A stretch of DNA of 64,000 bases from Oscillospiraceae bacterium (GTDB taxonomy: Bacteria > Bacillota > Clostridia > Oscillospirales > Oscillospiraceae), in contig CADAUZ010000008.1 of NCBI GenBank assembly GCA_902791215.1, positions 1-64,000 of the forward strand, written 5' to 3'. A model generated the notes under the pieces. The model made no database searches and was not told where the DNA came from. It worked only from the letters and a program-made list of their open reading frames with translations. How positions within the stretch are numbered: the first letter of the stretch is position 1; each line of letters begins with the position of its first letter. The position numbers and the translations under genes were made by a program. Shown here one piece after another: positions 17,430 through 63,304 of this stretch.

Positions 17430-17466
17430 ATGCGGAGGATGCTGTTGCAGCCGTACCGGAACGCCT

Positions 17467-19212
17467 ATGTTTGAAATCACGAAATACTTTCTGCCCGCCG
17501 CCTGCTTTCTGCTCATCACCGTCTTCTTCATGCTCCTGCCCGACCTGCGCACCTGCAGCTTAAGCGGAGGCACGCGCCGCATGGACCGCGCGGATTGGCT
17601 GGTCGTGGCGGGCGTAACCCTCGTCTACGCTGTCGCGGCCTTTATGGGCCTCGGCAACACCGCTTCGCCCGAGAGCTTTGTCAGAATGGAAAACGAGACC
17701 GCGCAGTTCGGGCTTGACCCGGACGGCGGCGCGGCGGCAAAGCTGATGATCTTCTCCGGCGTCGGCATCGGCGACTACAGCATCGACTATACCGATACGG
17801 ACGGCCATAACCTCCACCTGGCCGAGCTGGAGCAGAGTCACGGGGATGTGCTCAAATGGCACGAGGTAGCGCTCGAGCAGCCGGTGACCGGCGGCACGCT
17901 GCGCATTCTCGGCAGGGGCAATGTCTGGCTCGGCGAGGTCGTGGCGAAGACAGAGGACGGGGAGACCATTGCGCTCAGCGCAAGCCATCCGGAGCTTGCG
18001 GATGAGCAGGACCTGTGCCCCAAGCGCCAGACCTTCATGAACTCCAGCTACTTCGATGAGATCTACCACGCCCGCACAGCCTGGGAGCAGCTCAACGGCG
18101 TGTATCCCTACGAGATCACGCACCCGCCGCTCGGCAAGGCAATCATCGGCCTCGGCATCAAGCTCTTCGGCATGACGCCCTTCGGCTGGCGCTTTTCCGG
18201 GACGCTCTTCGGCGTGCTGATGCTGCCGATCCTCTACTACTTTGCCAAAAAACTCTTCGGCGGACGCATCACGCCCGCCGCCTGCATGATCCTGATGGCG
18301 ACGGATTTCATGCACTTTGTCCAGACGCGCATCTCCACGATCGACACCTACGCCGTCTTTTTCATCCTGCTGATGTACCTGTACATGTATCTGTTCGTCA
18401 GCGAGGGGCGGCTAAGAGACCTCGCCCTGTGCGGGGTGAGCTTCGGCCTCGGCGCCGCGAGCAAGTGGACCTGCTTTTACGCAGGCGCGGGCCTTGCGGT
18501 GATCTGGGCCCTGTGGGTGATCCGCGAGGCGCGGGCCGGGCGGCTGGATTTCCGGGGCTTTGTGAAAAACGCGCTTTTCTGCGTGGTGTTTTTCATCCTG
18601 GTGCCGGGCCTGATCTATTATCTGTCCTACATCCCCTACGGCGCTGCCCAGGGAAAGACGAATCTTTTCAGCCGCGATTACCTGAACATCGTGCTGGATA
18701 ACCAGCGCTATATGTTCAACTACCACTCCCAGCTCGTCGCCACCCATCCCTATTCCTCCCACTGGTACCAGTGGCTGCTGGATATCCGGCCCATCCTCTA
18801 TTATCTGGACTATCTCGCGGACGGGCGGACGGTGAGCTTCGGCGCCTTCGTCAATCCCGTGCTCTGCTGGGGCGGACTGCTGGCACTGTTCGTGCTGGGC
18901 TACCTCAGTTCTGCGCGGCGGGATAAGGTGTCGGCCTTCATCCTGCTGGGGTATCTGGCCCAGCTGTTGCCCTGGGTGCTGGTGCCGCGCCTTACCTTCG
19001 CCTACCACTACTTCCCCTGCACCGTGTTTCTGGCCCTGGCTCTGGGCCGCTGCTTTGATTTGATGGAGCGCAATGTCCGGTACGGAAAGCTGTATGTGGA
19101 CGGCTTCGTGCTGCTGAGTACCGCGGTCTTCGTGATGTTCTTCCCGGTGCTGGCGGGAATCCCTGTCGGCCGCAGCATATTAAGATCCTGGCTGCCGACC
19201 TGGCCGTTTTAA
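17467..19212 (+). CDS. Polytopic glycosyltransferase of the PMT (protein O-mannosyltransferase) type
   Basis: 581 residues. Two N-terminal spans flank a predicted outside beta-rich insert (about 75-180). The PMT-like core then begins with YFDEIYHARTAWEQLNGVYPYEITHPPLGK; its Asp-Glu pair and THPPLGK are the expected acidic metal/donor site and conserved loop. About nine further hydrophobic helices follow. Family members move a sugar from a polyprenyl-phosphate carrier to a protein or cell-wall acceptor at the membrane. Acceptor and sugar are unknown here. No good ribosome site precedes the ATG, so the start is less certain; a family 2 repeat lies directly upstream. It stands alone. Confidence 0.87.
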   Translation: MFEITKYFLPAACFLLITVFFMLLPDLRTCSLSGGTRRMDRADWLVVAGVTLVYAVAAFMGLGNTASPESFVRMENETAQFGLDPDGGAAAKLMIFSGVGIGDYSIDYTDTDGHNLHLAELEQSHGDVLKWHEVALEQPVTGGTLRILGRGNVWLGEVVAKTEDGETIALSASHPELADEQDLCPKRQTFMNSSYFDEIYHARTAWEQLNGVYPYEITHPPLGKAIIGLGIKLFGMTPFGWRFSGTLFGVLMLPILYYFAKKLFGGRITPAACMILMATDFMHFVQTRISTIDTYAVFFILLMYLYMYLFVSEGRLRDLALCGVSFGLGAASKWTCFYAGAGLAVIWALWVIREARAGRLDFRGFVKNALFCVVFFILVPGLIYYLSYIPYGAAQGKTNLFSRDYLNIVLDNQRYMFNYHSQLVATHPYSSHWYQWLLDIRPILYYLDYLADGRTVSFGAFVNPVLCWGGLLALFVLGYLSSARRDKVSAFILLGYLAQLLPWVLVPRLTFAYHYFPCTVFLALALGRCFDLMERNVRYGKLYVDGFVLLSTAVFVMFFPVLAGIPVGRSILRSWLPTWPF

Positions 19213-55883: not shown

Positions 55884-57272
55884 TTATTCCTTTTTCGCCC
55901 GCGGGAGGGCCAGCAGTTCCCGGACGCGCCGGTCGATGTGCTTCTCTATGGCGGTCAAACGCTCCTCCGGCAAATTGATGGACGGGTGCCGGGTGAAGCG
56001 GAAACCGATCAGGCGGCGAAGCTGGTTGCGTTGCTTTGTGCCCATGACCTCCCGACAGATCGCCTCGTAGGTGATGCCGTAAGGATTGGCGCGCGTCTTC
56101 GCATATTCCTCAAGGGTCTGGATATCGTCGGGCATGGCGTAGTTGAAGAGGGACAGGCCGTTATCAAAGATCGGCGCCGGGCTGAGAATCTTCCCGCTAT
56201 GGTTATCACGCAGGATACCGAAGTTGCCGAAATGTCGGTCCTCGTTATAGATCACCGCATCGAACACCAGCATGCTTTTCAGTTCCTCGGCGGCCTCCTT
56301 TCCAATGCTCTCATAGAAATCCAGGCAAGCCTGTATCCCGCCGCTTCTCACGATCCGACCTATGGAAACATAGGAAGTATCTATGTCAGTGAAGAGCTTG
56401 CACTTTGATGCCAGAATGTCCTTCCAGTTTTCCAGATCGTAATGGACAGCATGCAGCCCCATGCGCTCGGCGATCTGGCAGGCATAGTATTCGCTGTATG
56501 GCTCGCGTCCGGCATTGGACGCGCCCTCGGTGCCGCCTTTGTAGAGATAAATTCCGTCCCCCTCAATGAAACGCCAGGCCTTGCGCAGCATCCCCTGGGT
56601 GGTAAGCTCCGGGGAAGTGGTGAAGGCTTCATGGCTCTGCCCAACGCCAGTGTATGCCACCAAGGAAAGAACACTGGAAAAACGGTTTTCATAAAGATTG
56701 TATTCTTTGAAGGTTCCCTCAAAGCCAAGCGGGACAACCCAATAGCTGTCGTTCAGAGAGAGGCCCTTGCAGACATCAATGATCCCTTTGGTGTTGTTGA
56801 TGCTCAGCCCCAGTGTTTTTAAAATCTCATCCACGAAGGCACGGTTCTTGGGGATTACACGCTTCTCGAGCCACCGCATGATTCCTGCGTCGGTGAGATC
56901 CAGGTCGAGGGGAAAAACAGATTTGCGAACATCCTTCACAGAAAGGACATGCGCCTTCATACCGGCGAGTCCTGCGTCCTCCAAGGAAAATGTCAGAAGC
57001 TCTTCATCATAAAGACGCAAGCTGTATTTATCCACAATCGCTTCACTCCTTTCCTCCAGATTCATAGTTACGTCTTTTCCGAGTGCGCCTGAGATCTTCA
57101 GCAGCATGTCCAGCGAGATATTCTGCGCCCCGCTTTCAATGCGGCAGATGTTTGAGCGCTTGGTGCCGATCCGTTCGGCCAACTCCTGCTGGGAGATGCC
57201 CGCCTCAATCCGCGCAGCGGTCAGCATGGAGATGATCTTCTGCCGATCATCCAGTATCCGTGAATCATCCAT
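55884..57272 (-). CDS. Single-chain HipB-HipA protein (HTH fused to HipA-like kinase)
   Basis: 462 residues, start 8 bases after GGAGG. An XRE-type HTH domain (about 15-65, ISQQELAERIGTKRSNICRIESGAQNISLDMLLKI) is joined through a ~130-residue linker to a HipA-like Ser/Thr kinase part: YLYKGG...EPYSEYYACQIAERMGL, catalytic NEDRHFGNFG (Asp ~345) and metal-binding FDNG (~369). In classical systems HipB (HTH) and HipA (kinase) are separate genes; here one chain combines both. HipA phosphorylates targets such as GltX and causes persistence; the target here is unknown. The operator palindrome in the promoter spacer fits self-repression. Confidence 0.9.
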   Translation of the reverse strand: MDDSRILDDRQKIISMLTAARIEAGISQQELAERIGTKRSNICRIESGAQNISLDMLLKISGALGKDVTMNLEERSEAIVDKYSLRLYDEELLTFSLEDAGLAGMKAHVLSVKDVRKSVFPLDLDLTDAGIMRWLEKRVIPKNRAFVDEILKTLGLSINNTKGIIDVCKGLSLNDSYWVVPLGFEGTFKEYNLYENRFSSVLSLVAYTGVGQSHEAFTTSPELTTQGMLRKAWRFIEGDGIYLYKGGTEGASNAGREPYSEYYACQIAERMGLHAVHYDLENWKDILASKCKLFTDIDTSYVSIGRIVRSGGIQACLDFYESIGKEAAEELKSMLVFDAVIYNEDRHFGNFGILRDNHSGKILSPAPIFDNGLSLFNYAMPDDIQTLEEYAKTRANPYGITYEAICREVMGTKQRNQLRRLIGFRFTRHPSINLPEERLTAIEKHIDRRVRELLALPRAKKE

Positions 57273-57294
57273 AGCGCTCACCTCCGTTGGCTCG

Positions 57295-57323
57295 ATGTTA
57301 TCATATATGATAACAAATGTCAA
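57295..57323 (-). promoter_or_regulatory. Promoter of the HipA-like gene with palindromic operator
   Basis: Minus strand TTGACA, 17-base spacer, TAACAT. The 18-bp perfect palindrome GTTATCATATATGATAAC (57297-57314) fills the spacer and overlaps the -10, so binding would block polymerase. Confidence 0.8.
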
Positions 57324-57899: not shown

Positions 57900-59108
57900 T
57901 TATCCGGCAGTCCCTGCATCCTCCTTCCGGAAAATATCGGAGATCACATCGGCGCTGCTCTGCTTGGCGGCCTTGTCCAAGTGTGCGTAGATGTTCGCGG
58001 TAGTGCTGATGGTGGAGTGCCCGAGGAAGTTTGAGACATTGATCAGCGGAACTTCCTTGCTCAGCAGGACGCTTGCGAAGGTATGGCGCAGATCATGAAA
58101 GCGGATATGCCGCAGCCCGAGCTTTTCTAGCAGGTAGCTGAAATGATCCGTCACGAAGTTTGGACGCATAAGATTCCCCAGCTCATCGGTACAGACATAG
58201 TCATCCCATGTCCGGTTGTAACTGCCGCGGAAGAGCTTGCGGTTGATCTCCTGCCGCGCTCTGATCGTTTCAAGCATTTCGTACACCGGGTCGGGGATCG
58301 GCAGGGTGCGGCGGCTGGATTTGTTTTTCATCTCCTCGATGGCGCGGAGCACCGGTTCTCCGTCCGTCTTTTCCTCCACGATCTTGGTGTCGAGAAGGAC
58401 TGTGCGCTTGTCCATATCGATCCGAGACCAGCGCACCCCCAGGACCTCACTGCGCCGCAGTCCCATTCCGCCCGCGAGAACGACACAGGGCCAGATAGGA
58501 TCGCTGCGGCACAGCTCGAAGAGCGCGATCAGCTCATCCTCGGAATAGTGAGCGCCATGGAAGTCACTTTTCTTCGGCCGCTCCACACGATCGAAGGGAT
58601 TGACGTCAAGCAGCTCATCCTTGTAGGCTTGCTGGAAGGCGCTGTGCAGAAGAGTGTGGTAGTGGATCACACTCCCGGTTTTCAGTCCCTTTCCGAAGAG
58701 CCAATTGTAAAAGGCTTCGATATCCTTGGGCGTGATGCTCTCCACAGTCAGCTTCGGATGGGCGTTGAAGTATTCCTGGACCCTGCTGTACACCATCTGG
58801 TGGTAGCCCTTGTAAGTACTTACTTGCAGGCGGGGCTTCGCCTTTTCAAGGTATGCGCAGAGGAACGGGAAGATAGGAATGTCCGCGTCCGGTCTTCCGC
58901 CTCGGGCAAGGCGCTTATTGTATTCCTCTTCATACGTGGTGACCACTTTGCGAAAGGCCTTGTTGACCTGCGTCTGGCTGGCGCCCTCGGGTAACCCGAG
59001 AGCGCGCCATACCGATTTTGTCTTTCCGTCTTCCTTGACTTGAATCACCGCATGCAGGCGTCCATTCTTCTTCTGGACGCTTGCGGCGAGTGTTGCTTTT
59101 ATTGCCAT
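57900..59108 (-). CDS. Site-specific tyrosine recombinase (integrase)
   Basis: 402 residues. AP2-like arm-binding N-terminus, SAM-like core-binding domain (about 75-175, STYKGYHQMVYSRVQEYF), and a C-terminal catalytic domain with Arg near 218 (GLRRSEVLG), HDLRH near 338-342, and Tyr near 373 (TANIYAHLD). These are the R-H-x-x-R-Y residues needed for cutting and joining DNA. ATG is followed by MAIKATLAASVQKKNG, typical of Firmicutes integrative elements. The excisionase-like gene lies just upstream. Confidence 0.95.
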   Translation of the reverse strand: MAIKATLAASVQKKNGRLHAVIQVKEDGKTKSVWRALGLPEGASQTQVNKAFRKVVTTYEEEYNKRLARGGRPDADIPIFPFLCAYLEKAKPRLQVSTYKGYHQMVYSRVQEYFNAHPKLTVESITPKDIEAFYNWLFGKGLKTGSVIHYHTLLHSAFQQAYKDELLDVNPFDRVERPKKSDFHGAHYSEDELIALFELCRSDPIWPCVVLAGGMGLRRSEVLGVRWSRIDMDKRTVLLDTKIVEEKTDGEPVLRAIEEMKNKSSRRTLPIPDPVYEMLETIRARQEINRKLFRGSYNRTWDDYVCTDELGNLMRPNFVTDHFSYLLEKLGLRHIRFHDLRHTFASVLLSKEVPLINVSNFLGHSTISTTANIYAHLDKAAKQSSADVISDIFRKEDAGTAG

Positions 59109-59208: not shown

Positions 59209-59424
59209 TTATTTCACCGCCTTTCTTTCCGCGCTGCGCAGATAGTCGATCAGTGATTCCTTCGCCACACGATACTCCCGTCCGACCCTCACCGACGGGA
59301 TCGCACCGCTGTGGAGCTGATCGTACACGGTCTTGACATTCACGCGCAGTGTCTGCGCAACCTCGCTCGCGCTCAACGCGTCCGGTAAATCCCGAAACTG
59401 TTTTGCATATTCTCTTCTTGTCAT
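59209..59424 (-). CDS. Excisionase-like HTH_17 protein
   Basis: 71 residues. LSASEVAQTLRVNVKTVYDQLHSGAIPSVRVGREYRVAKESLIDYL is the helix-turn-helix plus wing of the HTH_17 (MerR-like excisionase) family. GGGGGGA precedes the ATG. Position directly upstream of the integrase fits a directionality factor for excision. Confidence 0.85.
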   Translation of the reverse strand: MTRREYAKQFRDLPDALSASEVAQTLRVNVKTVYDQLHSGAIPSVRVGREYRVAKESLIDYLRSAERKAVK

Positions 59425-59759: not shown

Positions 59760-60128
59760 TCAGCGGCAGCGGATGGCGGCGAGGACCTCGTCATAGATTT
59801 GATCCTGTTTCTCCAGCGCGTCCGCAAGTGCATCGCTGTTATGCGTTTCCTTCAGTGCAAGAAGCTCAGCGCGAATACTGTCCAGGCTTTTCAGCAATGG
59901 CCGAAACTGTTCGGCATTGCTGTATTGCAGAGCAGAGAGCAGTATGTAGCTTGTGAGACTCTGACCTCTCTTCCGGGCATGAGATCTCAGCAGATCTTTC
60001 TCCTCGGCTGTGAGACGCAGGCTCAGTGTCTCCGTGCGATTTCGTGTATACTTTCTTCCTATCTTCTCTTTTCCCCCATCAGTTTTTTCCAGACGATACA
60101 GCGTGACAAGCATCACGCTTCGCAGCAT
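59760..60128 (-). CDS. MobC-like relaxosome accessory protein
   Basis: About 122 residues; the ATG at 60128 is a guess (an in-frame TTG at 60146 lies close to TAGGA). NRTETLSLRLTAEEKDLLRSHARKRGQSLTSYILLSAL is a ribbon-helix-helix pattern like MobC or other plasmid mobilization proteins, and the C-terminus is a coiled-coil (SLDSIRAELLALKETHNSDALADALEKQDQIYDEVLAAI). It could bind the transfer origin of the element. Confidence 0.7.
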   Translation of the reverse strand: MLRSVMLVTLYRLEKTDGGKEKIGRKYTRNRTETLSLRLTAEEKDLLRSHARKRGQSLTSYILLSALQYSNAEQFRPLLKSLDSIRAELLALKETHNSDALADALEKQDQIYDEVLAAIRCR

Positions 60129-60300
60129 TTTCAAAGGCTTGCGCAATTCCTACTAACGTGACTGCGACCGATTATGAACGGCACAGCAGAGAACGTGAGC
60201 GTGGCAAGTCACGCGCCGGAACCACAATTGTCACATGAAACGAAAAGACTCGGCGGCAAAGCCGGCCGCGCTTTTCAACGTTTCGTCACGCATGTCACAG
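60102..60300. other. Palindrome cluster between MobC-like and helicase genes
   Basis: GCGTGACAAGCATCACGC (60102-60119), GCGTGGCAAGTCACGC (60201-60216) and further TGTCAC / CGTCACGC copies (about 60228, 60283, 60291) share the word GTGAC/GTCAC. Possible operators or a replication/transfer origin of the element. Confidence 0.45.
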
Positions 60301-60305
60301 GTTTT

Positions 60306-62069
60306 TCAAAACATGCTCGCCTCCAACGCTTTCCGGAACTTCTCCTTGGGCAGGAGCATGACACGGCGTGTCTGGCTTTTGAAGCGAATCGACCTTGTGT
60401 TCTCCCCGTGCGCTGTCTCGATCAGTCCTTCCTCTGCCAGCACCTTGGGAAGAGCTTTGGAGTTGATCATGAAGAGCTCGCCCTGGGCTTCGCAGAGTGA
60501 GCGGACGGCTTTGTGTGCCGAATCGTTGTGGATATAGTAATATGTATCATCCTCATACCCGATAAAGTTGTTCGGTAAGATAGAATCATTCTCATCCTTC
60601 CGGAGCAGCACTGCTTGTCCGCTCTCGATCAGAGACTGCAGCTTGCGGACAAAGATCATTGCGGGCTTGTCCTGGTTGACGCTCTGCGCCTGCTTGCGGG
60701 CAAGCGCGTTTATCTGTGAACTGAACACATCGAGGATTTCTTCGGCCCTTTCCCTCGTCAGGCACATCTGCTCTTCCAGAAAGCCGACAAGCATCAGCAT
60801 CCCGATCCGGAGCCATGCGACGATTTCCGGGAGCCTTCTATGTGAGCGGAGGCCGGTTTGATAGAACTCTTCACGGTAATCCAGGAAGGTCTTATGCAGC
60901 ATTTGCAGGAAACGGTTCTCATTTTCGGACGTATTCAGAAACTTCTCCCGCAGCCAGTTCGTGTACAGCTCCATACATGAACAGTAGCTGCCCTCAGACG
61001 CCCGCTCCTGAAAGAAGCCCATTTCCCCAAGCCGAACATCTTCCTGTTTTAGCTCGGCAGGAAAGCAGCGTGCGATTCCGCTCTCACCGATCTCAGGCAG
61101 GAACTCCGCTGTGATAACGGCATTTCCCCTTGGTGGCCGCGTCGTCATCGCAGTTGAGTCTGCTCGCAGTCTGCCGCGCCCGACACGATCACCGTAGGCA
61201 CGAACCACGGCCTGCACATTTTCTGCCATCTTTTTCTCTGCCTGCCTTCCGTCAGGATGATAGTCGTCGATGCAGGTCAGCACATCCTTGAGCGTGAAAG
61301 CATTGTGAATGATGCTGTTGGCGGTATCGCTGAAGGACATGGGAAGATCGGACGCCGTGAACCTCCCGAAGAAGGAAAGGAACAGCGCGATCAGCGAGCT
61401 TTTGCACGCGCCGGTTCTGCCGGCCAGCAGGAAAACGAACTTCGGCTCGCAGTCCGCCATGTGCAGGAAGTGATTCAGCGGCGTCAAGAATGTGAAAGCC
61501 AGGAGCGGCCAGATGGTTTCTTTCGGCGCAGGAGGACTTTCCAGCAGGAGCCCCAAATCCGAAAGCGCATCCGGATCAGTCTTCGAACCAAATTGATAGC
61601 GCGAGAATTGTTCGGGAAGCTCAACCGTCACGGTGTTGTCACCGGGCATAAGGAAATGCCAGCTGTTGTTGATTTTTTCCCAGCCGGTCATCTGATACAC
61701 CGTTTGACGTTCAGCCTCCGCGGCTGTCTGCTGAATGGCGTAGCGGACACTGTCCTTGACCATTTTGCCGACTTCCAGAATACAGTCCGCGCCCCACTGT
61801 TCGATCAGCCAGTTGAAGGTGAAAAGATCATTGCCGCAAATGTCAATCTCCGGCAGAGCGGTACCGTCATGTCTCACACCGCCAAGGCGGAGACGCTTTT
61901 TCTCTTCGGTGCCGTCATGGATCGTGACTTCGCTCACAATGTAGGGAAGAAAGTTGCATAGCTTTTGATCGAAGCTGCCGTTCTTTGTGCGCACCTCTCG
62001 GTAAAGGCAGCCGTCGATCACTTTGTAGGGTTGGGGATAGCTTGGGAGTTTGCGGTTTTCAAGACGCAT
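60306..62069 (-). CDS. DUF927-like ATPase/helicase of a mobile element
   Basis: 587 residues. An N-terminal domain of about 200 residues precedes an ATPase core with Walker A LLAGRTGACKSSLIALFLSFFG (Lys223) and a Walker B-like LTCIDDYHPDG (~260). This matches DUF927/superfamily-3-like helicases that replicate plasmids, satellites and integrative elements. The C-terminal 200 residues are mostly helical (DUF927-type cap and a possible DNA-binding wing). The start has a poor ribosome site. It lies upstream of the relaxosome-like and integration genes. Confidence 0.83.
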   Translation of the reverse strand: MRLENRKLPSYPQPYKVIDGCLYREVRTKNGSFDQKLCNFLPYIVSEVTIHDGTEEKKRLRLGGVRHDGTALPEIDICGNDLFTFNWLIEQWGADCILEVGKMVKDSVRYAIQQTAAEAERQTVYQMTGWEKINNSWHFLMPGDNTVTVELPEQFSRYQFGSKTDPDALSDLGLLLESPPAPKETIWPLLAFTFLTPLNHFLHMADCEPKFVFLLAGRTGACKSSLIALFLSFFGRFTASDLPMSFSDTANSIIHNAFTLKDVLTCIDDYHPDGRQAEKKMAENVQAVVRAYGDRVGRGRLRADSTAMTTRPPRGNAVITAEFLPEIGESGIARCFPAELKQEDVRLGEMGFFQERASEGSYCSCMELYTNWLREKFLNTSENENRFLQMLHKTFLDYREEFYQTGLRSHRRLPEIVAWLRIGMLMLVGFLEEQMCLTRERAEEILDVFSSQINALARKQAQSVNQDKPAMIFVRKLQSLIESGQAVLLRKDENDSILPNNFIGYEDDTYYYIHNDSAHKAVRSLCEAQGELFMINSKALPKVLAEEGLIETAHGENTRSIRFKSQTRRVMLLPKEKFRKALEASMF

Positions 62070-62170
62070 TCAATCACCGTTTTAACCTTTCTATATGATA
62101 TTTTTGTTTTACACAGTTTTGCTTATGACCATCACCTCTGCCGATCAGCAGGTGAATCTGTTTTTGCCAA

Positions 62171-62213
62171 TAAAAAAAGCGAGAGTCAAAGATTGCTCTT
62201 CAACTCTCGCTTT
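62171..62213 (-). terminator. Minus-strand terminator 1
   Basis: AAAGCGAGAGT / ACTCTCGCTTT with a 16-base loop; on the minus strand TTTTTTTA follows. Confidence 0.85.
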
Positions 62214-62247
62214 ATATAGAATCATATGTGAATTCATTTGTCTTTCC

Positions 62248-62306
62248 AAAAAAAGAAAAGCCGGGCATCATTCGCAGAACGAAACGATTCTGCAATGCTG
62301 CCCGGC
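62248..62306 (-). terminator. Minus-strand terminator 2 (end of the candidate RNA)
   Basis: GCCGGGC / GCCCGGC with an inner GCAGAA / TTCTGC stem; on the minus strand TTTTCTTTTTTT follows. Confidence 0.85.
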
Positions 62307-62846
62307 ATTATATAAAGGTCATATAGATAGACTAACCCCTTGTATGTGGATGTTGATAAAAATTTTAGCATTATTTTTGCGCGTGAAAATGTTTGTTACG
62401 CATCGTCGCGTGTGAAAAGTGCGTTGCTCGTCGTATTTGTCTCAGCCCCCGACGATATCCCAGACTGAGCGTTAGCTCATTTGAGAATGGGAGAATTCCA
62501 AGTACCTCGCAGCATCTATGTCGTGACTCTTTTCACGACAACGAGGATCACGCATGGCATCGCAGGCATAATCTCAGCCTGAAACGACCGTGCCCCGCCT
62601 CCAAGCGGGCCTTCACAAAGGGCATGTCATTATCCCCAACCAGGATCATGGCTTGCGGAGCAATGCTGTGTGCTGCTCCGTCCGGCGCAAGGTCTATCGC
62701 TCGCTCCTTTTCGGAGGTCATGGCGCCCTTACCCGGCAGCTTGTCCTTTCGGACTGGCTGGGATTCCCCTTGGAATCCTGTATATTCAATTTTCAAGGTA
62801 CAGCTGTCAAAGGACGGCTGAAGCCAGCCGCCCTTTGACAAAGTAC
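62248..62846 (-). ncRNA. Candidate large structured non-coding RNA
   Basis: A ~600-nt transcription unit on the minus strand: promoter (62853-62880), strong 5' hairpin (TGTCAAAGGACGGCTG / CAGCCGCCCTTTGACA at 62805-62840, 4-base loop), then hairpins GGATTCC/GGAATCC (62761-62778), GTCC-GAAA-GGAC with a GNRA loop (62743-62754), CTCC-GAAAA-GGAG (62704-62716), GGAGCA/TGCTCC (62657-62679), GTCGTGA/TCACGAC (62520-62539) and TGAGC-GTTA-GCTCA (62466-62479), and finally the terminator at 62248-62306. The longest minus-strand frame (97 codons, TTG start, no ribosome site) crosses these hairpins and is not convincing. Size and mobile-element setting recall ROOL, GOLLD or OLE-type RNAs; family identity is unknown. 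Confidence 0.55.
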
Positions 62847-62852
62847 ATTAGT

Positions 62853-62880
62853 ATTATAATTCTAATTGTAATAATCGTAA
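62853..62880 (-). promoter_or_regulatory. Predicted promoter of the candidate RNA
   Basis: Minus strand TTACGA, 16-base spacer, perfect TATAAT, AT-rich surroundings; expected start near 62846. Confidence 0.6.
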
Positions 62881-63019
62881 ATATATGTTTTATACGAAAT
62901 CTCGCTTCTATATTTAGCAATTATTCACAAGGATTGTCGCCGTATTCGAGCGATGCAGAAACCAGTTCAAGTGTATCAGAAAATCGAAGATGAGCGAAAT
63001 CTATTTTTTAGACTTCAGA

Positions 63020-63082: not shown

Positions 63083-63304
63083 ATGACAGTCTGCTACAAC
63101 AAGCTGTGGAAGCTGCTTATTGACAAGGGTATGAAGAAAAAGGATTTGCGTCTGGCAACCGGGATGACCACGACTGCGCTGGCGAAGCTGGGAAAGAACG
63201 AGCATGTCAGCACTGCCCTGCTGGTGAAGATCTGCAAGGTTCTGGACTGCGATCTCTGTGATATTGTGGAACTGGTGCGTGACGAGGAGGCCGGCCATGA
63301 TTGA
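63083..63304 (+). CDS. XRE-family HTH regulator
   Basis: 73 residues from the ATG after GAGGT. KLWKLLIDKGMKKKDLRLATGMTTTALAKLGKNEHVSTALLVKICKVLDCDLCDIVEL is a single XRE/Cro-type DNA-binding domain and little else, typical of small regulators in mobile elements. The stop overlaps the next gene by 8 bases, so it is likely a regulator of it. Confidence 0.92.
   Translation: MTVCYNKLWKLLIDKGMKKKDLRLATGMTTTALAKLGKNEHVSTALLVKICKVLDCDLCDIVELVRDEEAGHD

Follow-up and report, generated by a model that had tools for sequence, protein, structure and literature searches.

What kind of gene, if any, occupies the roughly 600 nucleotides near the right-hand end of this 64,000-nucleotide stretch of an Oscillospiraceae genome (the window), where several open reading frames but no obvious protein are found among genes of a mobile element? 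The initial annotation, made from the letters alone, proposed a structured RNA gene on the minus strand behind a good promoter, and a promoter-like site, TTTACG-17-TATAAT, was located at 62853-62881 (-), which agrees with the consensus at 10 of 12 positions and is a consensus match only; it is among the two best of 8 promoter-like matches between 57300 and 64000, where 4.2 are expected from shuffles. A 16-bp 5' hairpin with one mismatch had also been described. The hairpin is present at 62806-62839 (-), as GTCAAAGGGCGGCTG-GCTT-CAGCCGTCCTTTGAC directly upstream of the boxA-like element presented below, but the supposed mismatch is a G-U pair and the stem is fully paired; the 58-nt stretch that contains it folds at -34.1 kcal/mol (z -8.8). 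The strong terminator with a T-run was likewise recovered, as terminator-like hairpin 1 at 62247-62306 (-) (-32.1 kcal/mol, z -5.6), which simple terminator scans missed. A second, tandem terminator-like hairpin, absent from the initial annotation, stands 33 nt past the first at 62170-62213 (-) (17-bp stem, T-run, -24.2 kcal/mol, z -6.9), and two strong terminator-like hairpins therefore lie between the minus-strand RNA and the next gene of the mobilisation/integration cluster. Against 20 shuffled versions, the 614-nt minus strand had a stronger fold than every one (z -7.5), and the plus strand of the same region likewise outdid its shuffles (z -6.5). Because both strands fold strongly, folding energy alone cannot fix the strand, and the minus strand was assigned because the covariance-model match, the promoter, boxA and the terminators are all on it.

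The search for DNA homologs that had been proposed as a check was productive in part: among 295 genomes of the same order, short matches outside the dinG motif were found in 5 other genomes, but no close homolog of the RNA region was found in phages or plasmids. By DNA search the window's own genome holds one copy of the region, and a 23-base pattern from the 5' hairpin had no match in viral contigs. Two of the loci with short matches (L002 and L003) carry three blocks in the order seen in the window, namely TTGAAAAYTGAATA, GCGCCATGACC-hairpin-GCGAGCGATA and AATGATACTTC. A pattern scan with the middle block (box2) returned 30 genome-contig stretches, 21 of which are relatives; 13 of the 30 joined the family set, each with a pemK match, and 8 (L015, L021, L022, L026, L031, L033, L035 and L036) later matched R1, a covariance model of the 5' domain. 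The remaining 9, from other phyla, were left out of the R1 search and regarded as chance, and R1 matched none of 4 viral-contig stretches at E<=1. When 17 relatives were compared with Rfam, 15 contained the pemK RNA (RF02913) and 2 the dinG RNA, both of the latter having been found via dinG; neither family carries an Rfam clan label. Kinship with ROOL, GOLLD or OLE, which had been raised as a precedent, was not supported: Rfam 15 placed no family above threshold at the RNA, and matches to these three were absent both from the window at gathering thresholds and from 62200-62950 at E<=10.

The family set comprised 87 loci, which were reduced to 83 by removal of 2 exact duplicates (L023 and L006) and 2 loci with short upstream sequence; near-duplicates, for example L065, L066, L068 and L070, were kept. 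A strict regular expression found both halves of box2 in 53 of the 83. For the 5' domain, an alignment (A1) was built from 26 of 51 candidates, author-chosen for a classical box2 and for length; the window RNA is excluded from it, and L081, a further copy in the window's own genome, is included. In A1, 92.6% of cells were paired versus 71.2% in shuffled alignments, and 90 double-sided changes were counted versus 24, a value reached by 0 of 500 shuffles; the covariation score was 0.568 versus at most 0.134 with partners slid. The long-range helix P1 displayed double-sided changes at all 7 of its modelled pairs, and short helix 4, the counterpart of P5 in the window, co-varies and is 80.8% paired. 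The 3' model, R2, was made from 19 of 23 sequences (A2), all of them pemK loci preselected for a 3' loop. A2 gave 115 double-sided changes versus 33, and a score of 0.771 versus at most 0.175 with partners slid; because its members were preselected for the 3' loop, this covariation speaks for that subset. Covariation among homologs, another check that the initial annotation had put forward, was strong in both A1 and A2, and the proposal that a mobile region here holds a gene for a structured RNA is supported.

R1, which was derived from A1 and describes a 177-position 5' domain, gave a single match in the 64-kb window at E<=10, at 62620-62798 (-) (78.6 bits, E 3.5e-16). This match, to a sequence outside the training set, runs end to end from boxA to ATAATGAC, and no non-standard pair is marked in the alignment. 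At the 5' edge of the RNA lies the boxA-like element CCTTGAAAATTGAATA (62783-62798 (-), 0 mismatches); the search pattern CYTTGAMAAYTGAATA, picked after the family had been seen, has this element as its sole match in 64 kb with at most one mismatch allowed, and no match in 100 shuffles. The 5' strand of P1, UCCCAGCCA (62755-62763 (-)), forms nine contiguous standard pairs with the 3' strand, UGGUUGGGG (62634-62642 (-)), pairing 62763-62755 with 62642-62634, and the helix has both the R1 match and covariation in relatives behind it. Enclosed by P1 are two hairpins read directly from the sequence, P2 (GUCC-GAAA-GGAC, 62743-62754 (-)), which is the GAAA tetraloop hairpin already picked out in the initial annotation, and P5 (CGGAGCA...UGCUCCG, 62656-62680 (-)). 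Between them are box2a, GCGCCAUGACC (62716-62726 (-)), in which CGCC is invariant in 26 of 26 sequences of A1; hairpin P4 (UCC-GAAAA-GGA, 62705-62715 (-)), which equals the co-varying helix 3 of relatives; and box2b, GCGAGCGAUA (62695-62704 (-)), in which AGCGA is invariant in 26 of 26. P3 (CCGG/CCGG and AAGG/CCUU, 62682-62736 (-)), around box2 and P4, was drawn from the window copy only. After P1 comes the conserved AUAAUGAC (62626-62633 (-)), whose equivalent site in Tn916 is struck by the inactivating canT(S3) mutation. The hairpin that precedes boxA is only partly conserved across relatives: the 60 nt upstream of boxA were in the top 5% of local 60-mers by folding at 18 of 60 relative loci, where about 3 are expected.

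Further downstream, the dinG RNA (RF03082) aligns with 80 nt of the window RNA at 62552-62631 (-), with E-values of 2.5e-6 (751 nt searched) and 2.6e-6 (whole genome); however, its 45.4 bits are just below the gathering score of 46.9, and the dinG model describes a fragment of the RNA only. In relatives, Tn916 among them, the 5' domain that they share is directly followed by the pemK RNA, whereas the window has no pemK match at gathering thresholds, and 62200-62950 has none even at E<=10. A terminal hairpin with a loop like GGGGUGUCGAGGACAAAUA was found in 32 of 84 relatives versus 7 of 1785 background windows, using a regular expression that misses the window RNA. A candidate 3' terminal hairpin with a loop resembling GGGGUGUCGAGGACAAAUA, UCGUCG-GGGGCUGAGACAAAUA-CGACGA, is present at 62428-62455 (-). 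R2 gave no match in the full window at E<=10; forced on 361 nt of the window with filters off, it aligned end to end with only 7 bits and placed the terminal hairpin at 62455-62428. R2 scored 35.4 bits against a Tn916-like locus (L078). The window RNA is thus clear in its 5' domain and dinG-like in its middle, while its 3' end has diverged and contains extra sequence.

The 5' model also connects the Rfam families with one another. R1 matched four of six dinG loci at E<=2e-5 (L013, L012, L008 and L010; L012 and L013 are close copies from one genome, which also holds L008), a fifth (L007) at E 0.026, and the sixth (L011) not at all. Since R1 recognises the 5' domain at loci with dinG as well, dinG, pemK and canT, the antiterminator RNA of Tn916, are joined into one class by evidence outside both Rfam models. 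Of 295 genomes sampled from the order, 94 have the pemK RNA and 4 the dinG RNA, neither of which was found in any of 14 control genomes; R1 with strict filters matched 30 of 398 genomes from the phylum. The window's own genome is counted in each case. At E<1e-8, R1 matched this genome four times: at the window RNA, and at C15:71023-71192 (L123, 99.8 bits), C5:45537-45721 (L125, 58.0 bits) and C39:25563-25727 (L126, 53.3 bits) of assembly G000. Four members of the class thus seem to be present in it.

In Tn916, canT is described in the main text of PMC11658703 as a 452-nt cis-acting processive antiterminator RNA, encoded between orf8 and xis, that acts on T1, T2, T3 and the gatB terminator as well as on three foreign terminators in an array. 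Published canT coordinates were mapped onto L078, a Tn916-like copy on plasmid pCTN1046 with a sigma gene, an HTH gene, the RNA, an excisionase and an integrase, by setting the orf8 stop at 740. The canT interval of L078 contains the conserved boxes and a pemK RNA at 1023-1123 (55 bits); its long-range helix, 899-907 with 1012-1020, was read by eye, L078 being gapped at this helix in A1. On this map, which relies on coordinates given in that text, the active 452-nt fragment is L078:866-1317, and the inactive 162-bp deletion is L078:969-1130, so that both the pemK motif and the 3' strand of the long-range helix are lost. The inactive 3-bp substitution S3 (ATA to TGC) falls at L078:1023-1025, on the three bases with which the conserved ATAATGATAC begins. 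Mutations that were made for other reasons therefore strike conserved features. The same text reports that in a 400-bp canT fragment S3 made little or no difference, and that a 291-nt fragment, which includes the regions altered in inactive mutants, was inactive (Wirachman and Grossman 2024; PMC11658703). The active 452-nt fragment, so mapped, begins inside boxA (TTGAAAAC), and a complete boxA may therefore not be needed.

Tn916 canT and the window RNA share the order of boxA, GCCAUGACC-hairpin-GCGAGCGA, AUAAUGAUAC and a dinG/pemK-type domain (a candidate one in the window RNA), together with the long-range helix, and both are mobile-element leaders ahead of an excisionase and an integrase. 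They differ in that the window RNA has an adjoining upstream promoter-like site, a diverged 3' domain and two adjoining downstream terminator-like hairpins, and in that its element has a small mobilisation-type cluster, with a divergent HTH gene upstream instead of orf7-orf8. By its end-to-end R1 match and the boxA at its 5' edge, the window RNA is assigned to the canT-type class, and pemK RNA, dinG RNA, canT and the window RNA are, on comparison of their sequences, one RNA class in which three separately catalogued RNAs are joined. Processive antitermination based on RNA is also known for conAn of pLS20, put of HK022 and EAR of the B. subtilis eps operon, which are likened here by description, following the summary in the text of PMC11658703.

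The boxA element is frequent in the family: CHTTGAMAA was found within 320 nt upstream of pemK matches at 62 of 83 loci versus 54 of 1787 background windows. No 16S gene was found in the window's own assembly or in assemblies G242 and G070, and 12 16S loci from five other genomes of the order were therefore used for a comparison with rRNA operons. The boxA core TTGAAAAYTGAAYA, which is also that of the window RNA, lies 263-843 nt past the 16S 3' end at 12 of 12 loci (position measured from 16S), and CCTTGAAAATTRAACA lies 173-187 nt upstream of 16S at 8 of 12. In E. coli, boxA is the binding site of NusB and S10 in the antitermination complexes of lambda N and rrn, according to passages of PMC12691694. 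By analogy, the boxA of the window RNA would recruit NusB/S10 as in rRNA operons, and the RNA perhaps uses host rRNA-type antitermination factors.

The genes around the RNA look like those of an integrative mobilisable element. The first downstream gene (60306-62069 (-)) encodes a 587-aa protein for which Pfam, NCBIfam and PHROG gave no match; two Brachybacterium plasmids encode hypothetical proteins that resemble it distantly (24% identity, E 2e-13). This gene is followed by those for a NikA-like mobilisation accessory protein (59760-60146 (-); PF21983, 34.3 bits, cut-off 27), an excisionase-like HTH protein (59209-59424 (-); HTH_17, TIGR01764 over cut-off) and a tyrosine integrase (57900-59108 (-); PF00589, 84.2 bits). 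Upstream of the RNA are a divergent HTH gene and an AlbA_2 gene. The sole NCBIfam match of the HTH gene (63083-63304 (+)) is a VanU regulator at 84.3 bits against a cut-off of 150, and since this is far below the cut-off the label should not be taken as resistance. Near the integrase, 55884-57323 (-) encodes a 479-aa protein in which an HTH_3 domain is accompanied by a weak match to HipA_C (27.7 bits against a cut-off of 30.5); it is possibly a fused HipBA-like protein. Past the window end on contig C8, two similar stretches of about 107 nt lie 5.66 kb apart (L151:11795-11901 and 17455-17562), 85% and 93% identical in two pieces, with an inverted repeat followed by TTTTT. Attachment sites were looked for as direct repeats around the element and none was recognised.

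The context of relatives was scanned as the longest nearby open reading frames, which are not called genes, at 66 of 83 loci downstream and 49 of 77 upstream. Downstream, 19 of the 66 frames encode a resolvase domain, 9 a phage integrase, 8 a PemK toxin and 5 an AAA_31/ParA-type ATPase; upstream, sigma-70 region 4 was found in 15 of 49. By these matches, the relatives appear to lie mostly in mobile-element contexts where a family was recognised. At one of the duplicate loci an Rfam gut-2 RNA (L023:3158-3205, 48.9 bits) was observed about 1.1 kb upstream of the pemK RNA. Across the family, an enrichment of terminators was seen upstream of the RNA (29 of 75 loci versus 4 of 75 on the opposite strand), whereas no such enrichment was found just downstream of it (8 of 75 versus 9 of 75). 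Terminator adjacency downstream is therefore a feature of the window copy and not of the class, and processive antitermination needs no adjacent terminator. Terminator-like hairpins with T-rich tails were also seen on the RNA strand shortly upstream of boxA at L101, L102, L108 and L088.

Taken together, the region is most probably, by analogy with Tn916, a canT-type antiterminator leader of a minus-strand mobile-element operon. RNA polymerase would start at the promoter around 62853-62881 and make a folded RNA of about 400 nt, laid out as boxA, the long-range helix enclosing hairpins and conserved boxes, and then the candidate dinG/pemK-type domain. The nascent RNA would act in cis on its own polymerase and make it terminator-resistant, as in Tn916 canT. 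The order of promoter, RNA, two terminators and genes in the window can be read to mean that the RNA takes polymerase past the two terminators: the modified polymerase would pass tandem terminators 1 and 2 and reach the genes for the 587-aa protein, the NikA-like protein, the excisionase and the integrase, while unmodified polymerase, stray transcription included, would halt at terminator 1 or 2. That the window copy antiterminates in cis is inferred from its likeness to canT, and terminators 1 and 2 as its targets, with the downstream cluster as one operon, would follow the same model.

Other readings of the locus share part of this evidence. The region could encode a stand-alone RNA of about 600 nt that ends at terminator 1 and acts in trans, perhaps as an RNP, in the manner of the large ornate RNAs; its own promoter-like site and a strong terminator-like hairpin do bound a discrete transcript of that size, and the fold is strong. 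This is unlikely, given that its relatives are canT-type RNAs, that Tn916 canT gave no complementation in trans according to the main text of PMC11658703, and that ROOL, GOLLD and OLE have no match here in Rfam. About equally unlikely is a conventional attenuator or riboswitch that controls terminator 1 only through alternative pairing, perhaps with a ligand. The leader position would suit such a device, as would a terminator about 120 nt beyond the last candidate element and the type 'Cis-reg' that Rfam gives to pemK RNA; however, no terminators are enriched right after the RNA across relatives, and the action of Tn916 canT on many terminators, foreign ones included, as that paper's text describes it (PMC11658703), is hard to square with pairing. 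A single-stranded-DNA signal (an origin of transfer or single-strand origin), in which the hairpins are selected in DNA, would be at home in a mobile element and would explain why both strands fold well, but it is distinctly less probable still: G-U pairs and double-sided changes fit a one-strand RNA, and in Tn916, by the same main text (PMC11658703), oriT and sso map apart from canT, and canT mutants keep excision and lose downstream-gene transcription. A protein-coding gene can be dismissed almost entirely, for although open frames of 97 aa (62548-62841 (-)) and 142 aa (+) exist, the absence of a convincing protein gene noted at the outset was borne out by the lack of any Pfam match at E<=1 for 5 ORFs (45-142 aa) across the region and of anything significant for the 97-aa frame in plasmids by tblastn (best E 0.2), and relatives differ in length while keeping pairs and boxes.

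With the canT-type leader as the preferred reading, the initial claim of an undescribed system stands only in part. Rfam already lists pieces of the class as dinG and pemK, and canT is published; neither the link into one class nor the window member itself was found in print in the open-licence full-text literature, where no paper was seen to link canT, pemK and dinG or to name boxA in canT. The dinG and pemK motifs of Rfam reportedly come, in all likelihood, from Weinberg et al. 2017. The main text of the canT paper contains no occurrence of boxA, Rfam, pemK or NusB (PMC11658703).

These findings suggest a function for the pemK and dinG families of Rfam, for neither of which one was found in the open-licence literature, and indicate that canT is the best-studied case of a common RNA and not an oddity of Tn916. 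The comparison also supplies conserved structure that the authors of the canT study did not have, and the role of boxA and NusB in the expression of element genes becomes directly testable. More broadly, there is perhaps an even chance that Tn916 canT, pemK, dinG and the window RNA belong to a single large antiterminator RNA family of Bacillota mobile elements, which would borrow host rRNA antitermination factors via boxA, with the folded RNA replacing accessory factors, and which would work together with insulating terminators. If this is true, such an element would keep stray transcription out and yet express its own long operon.
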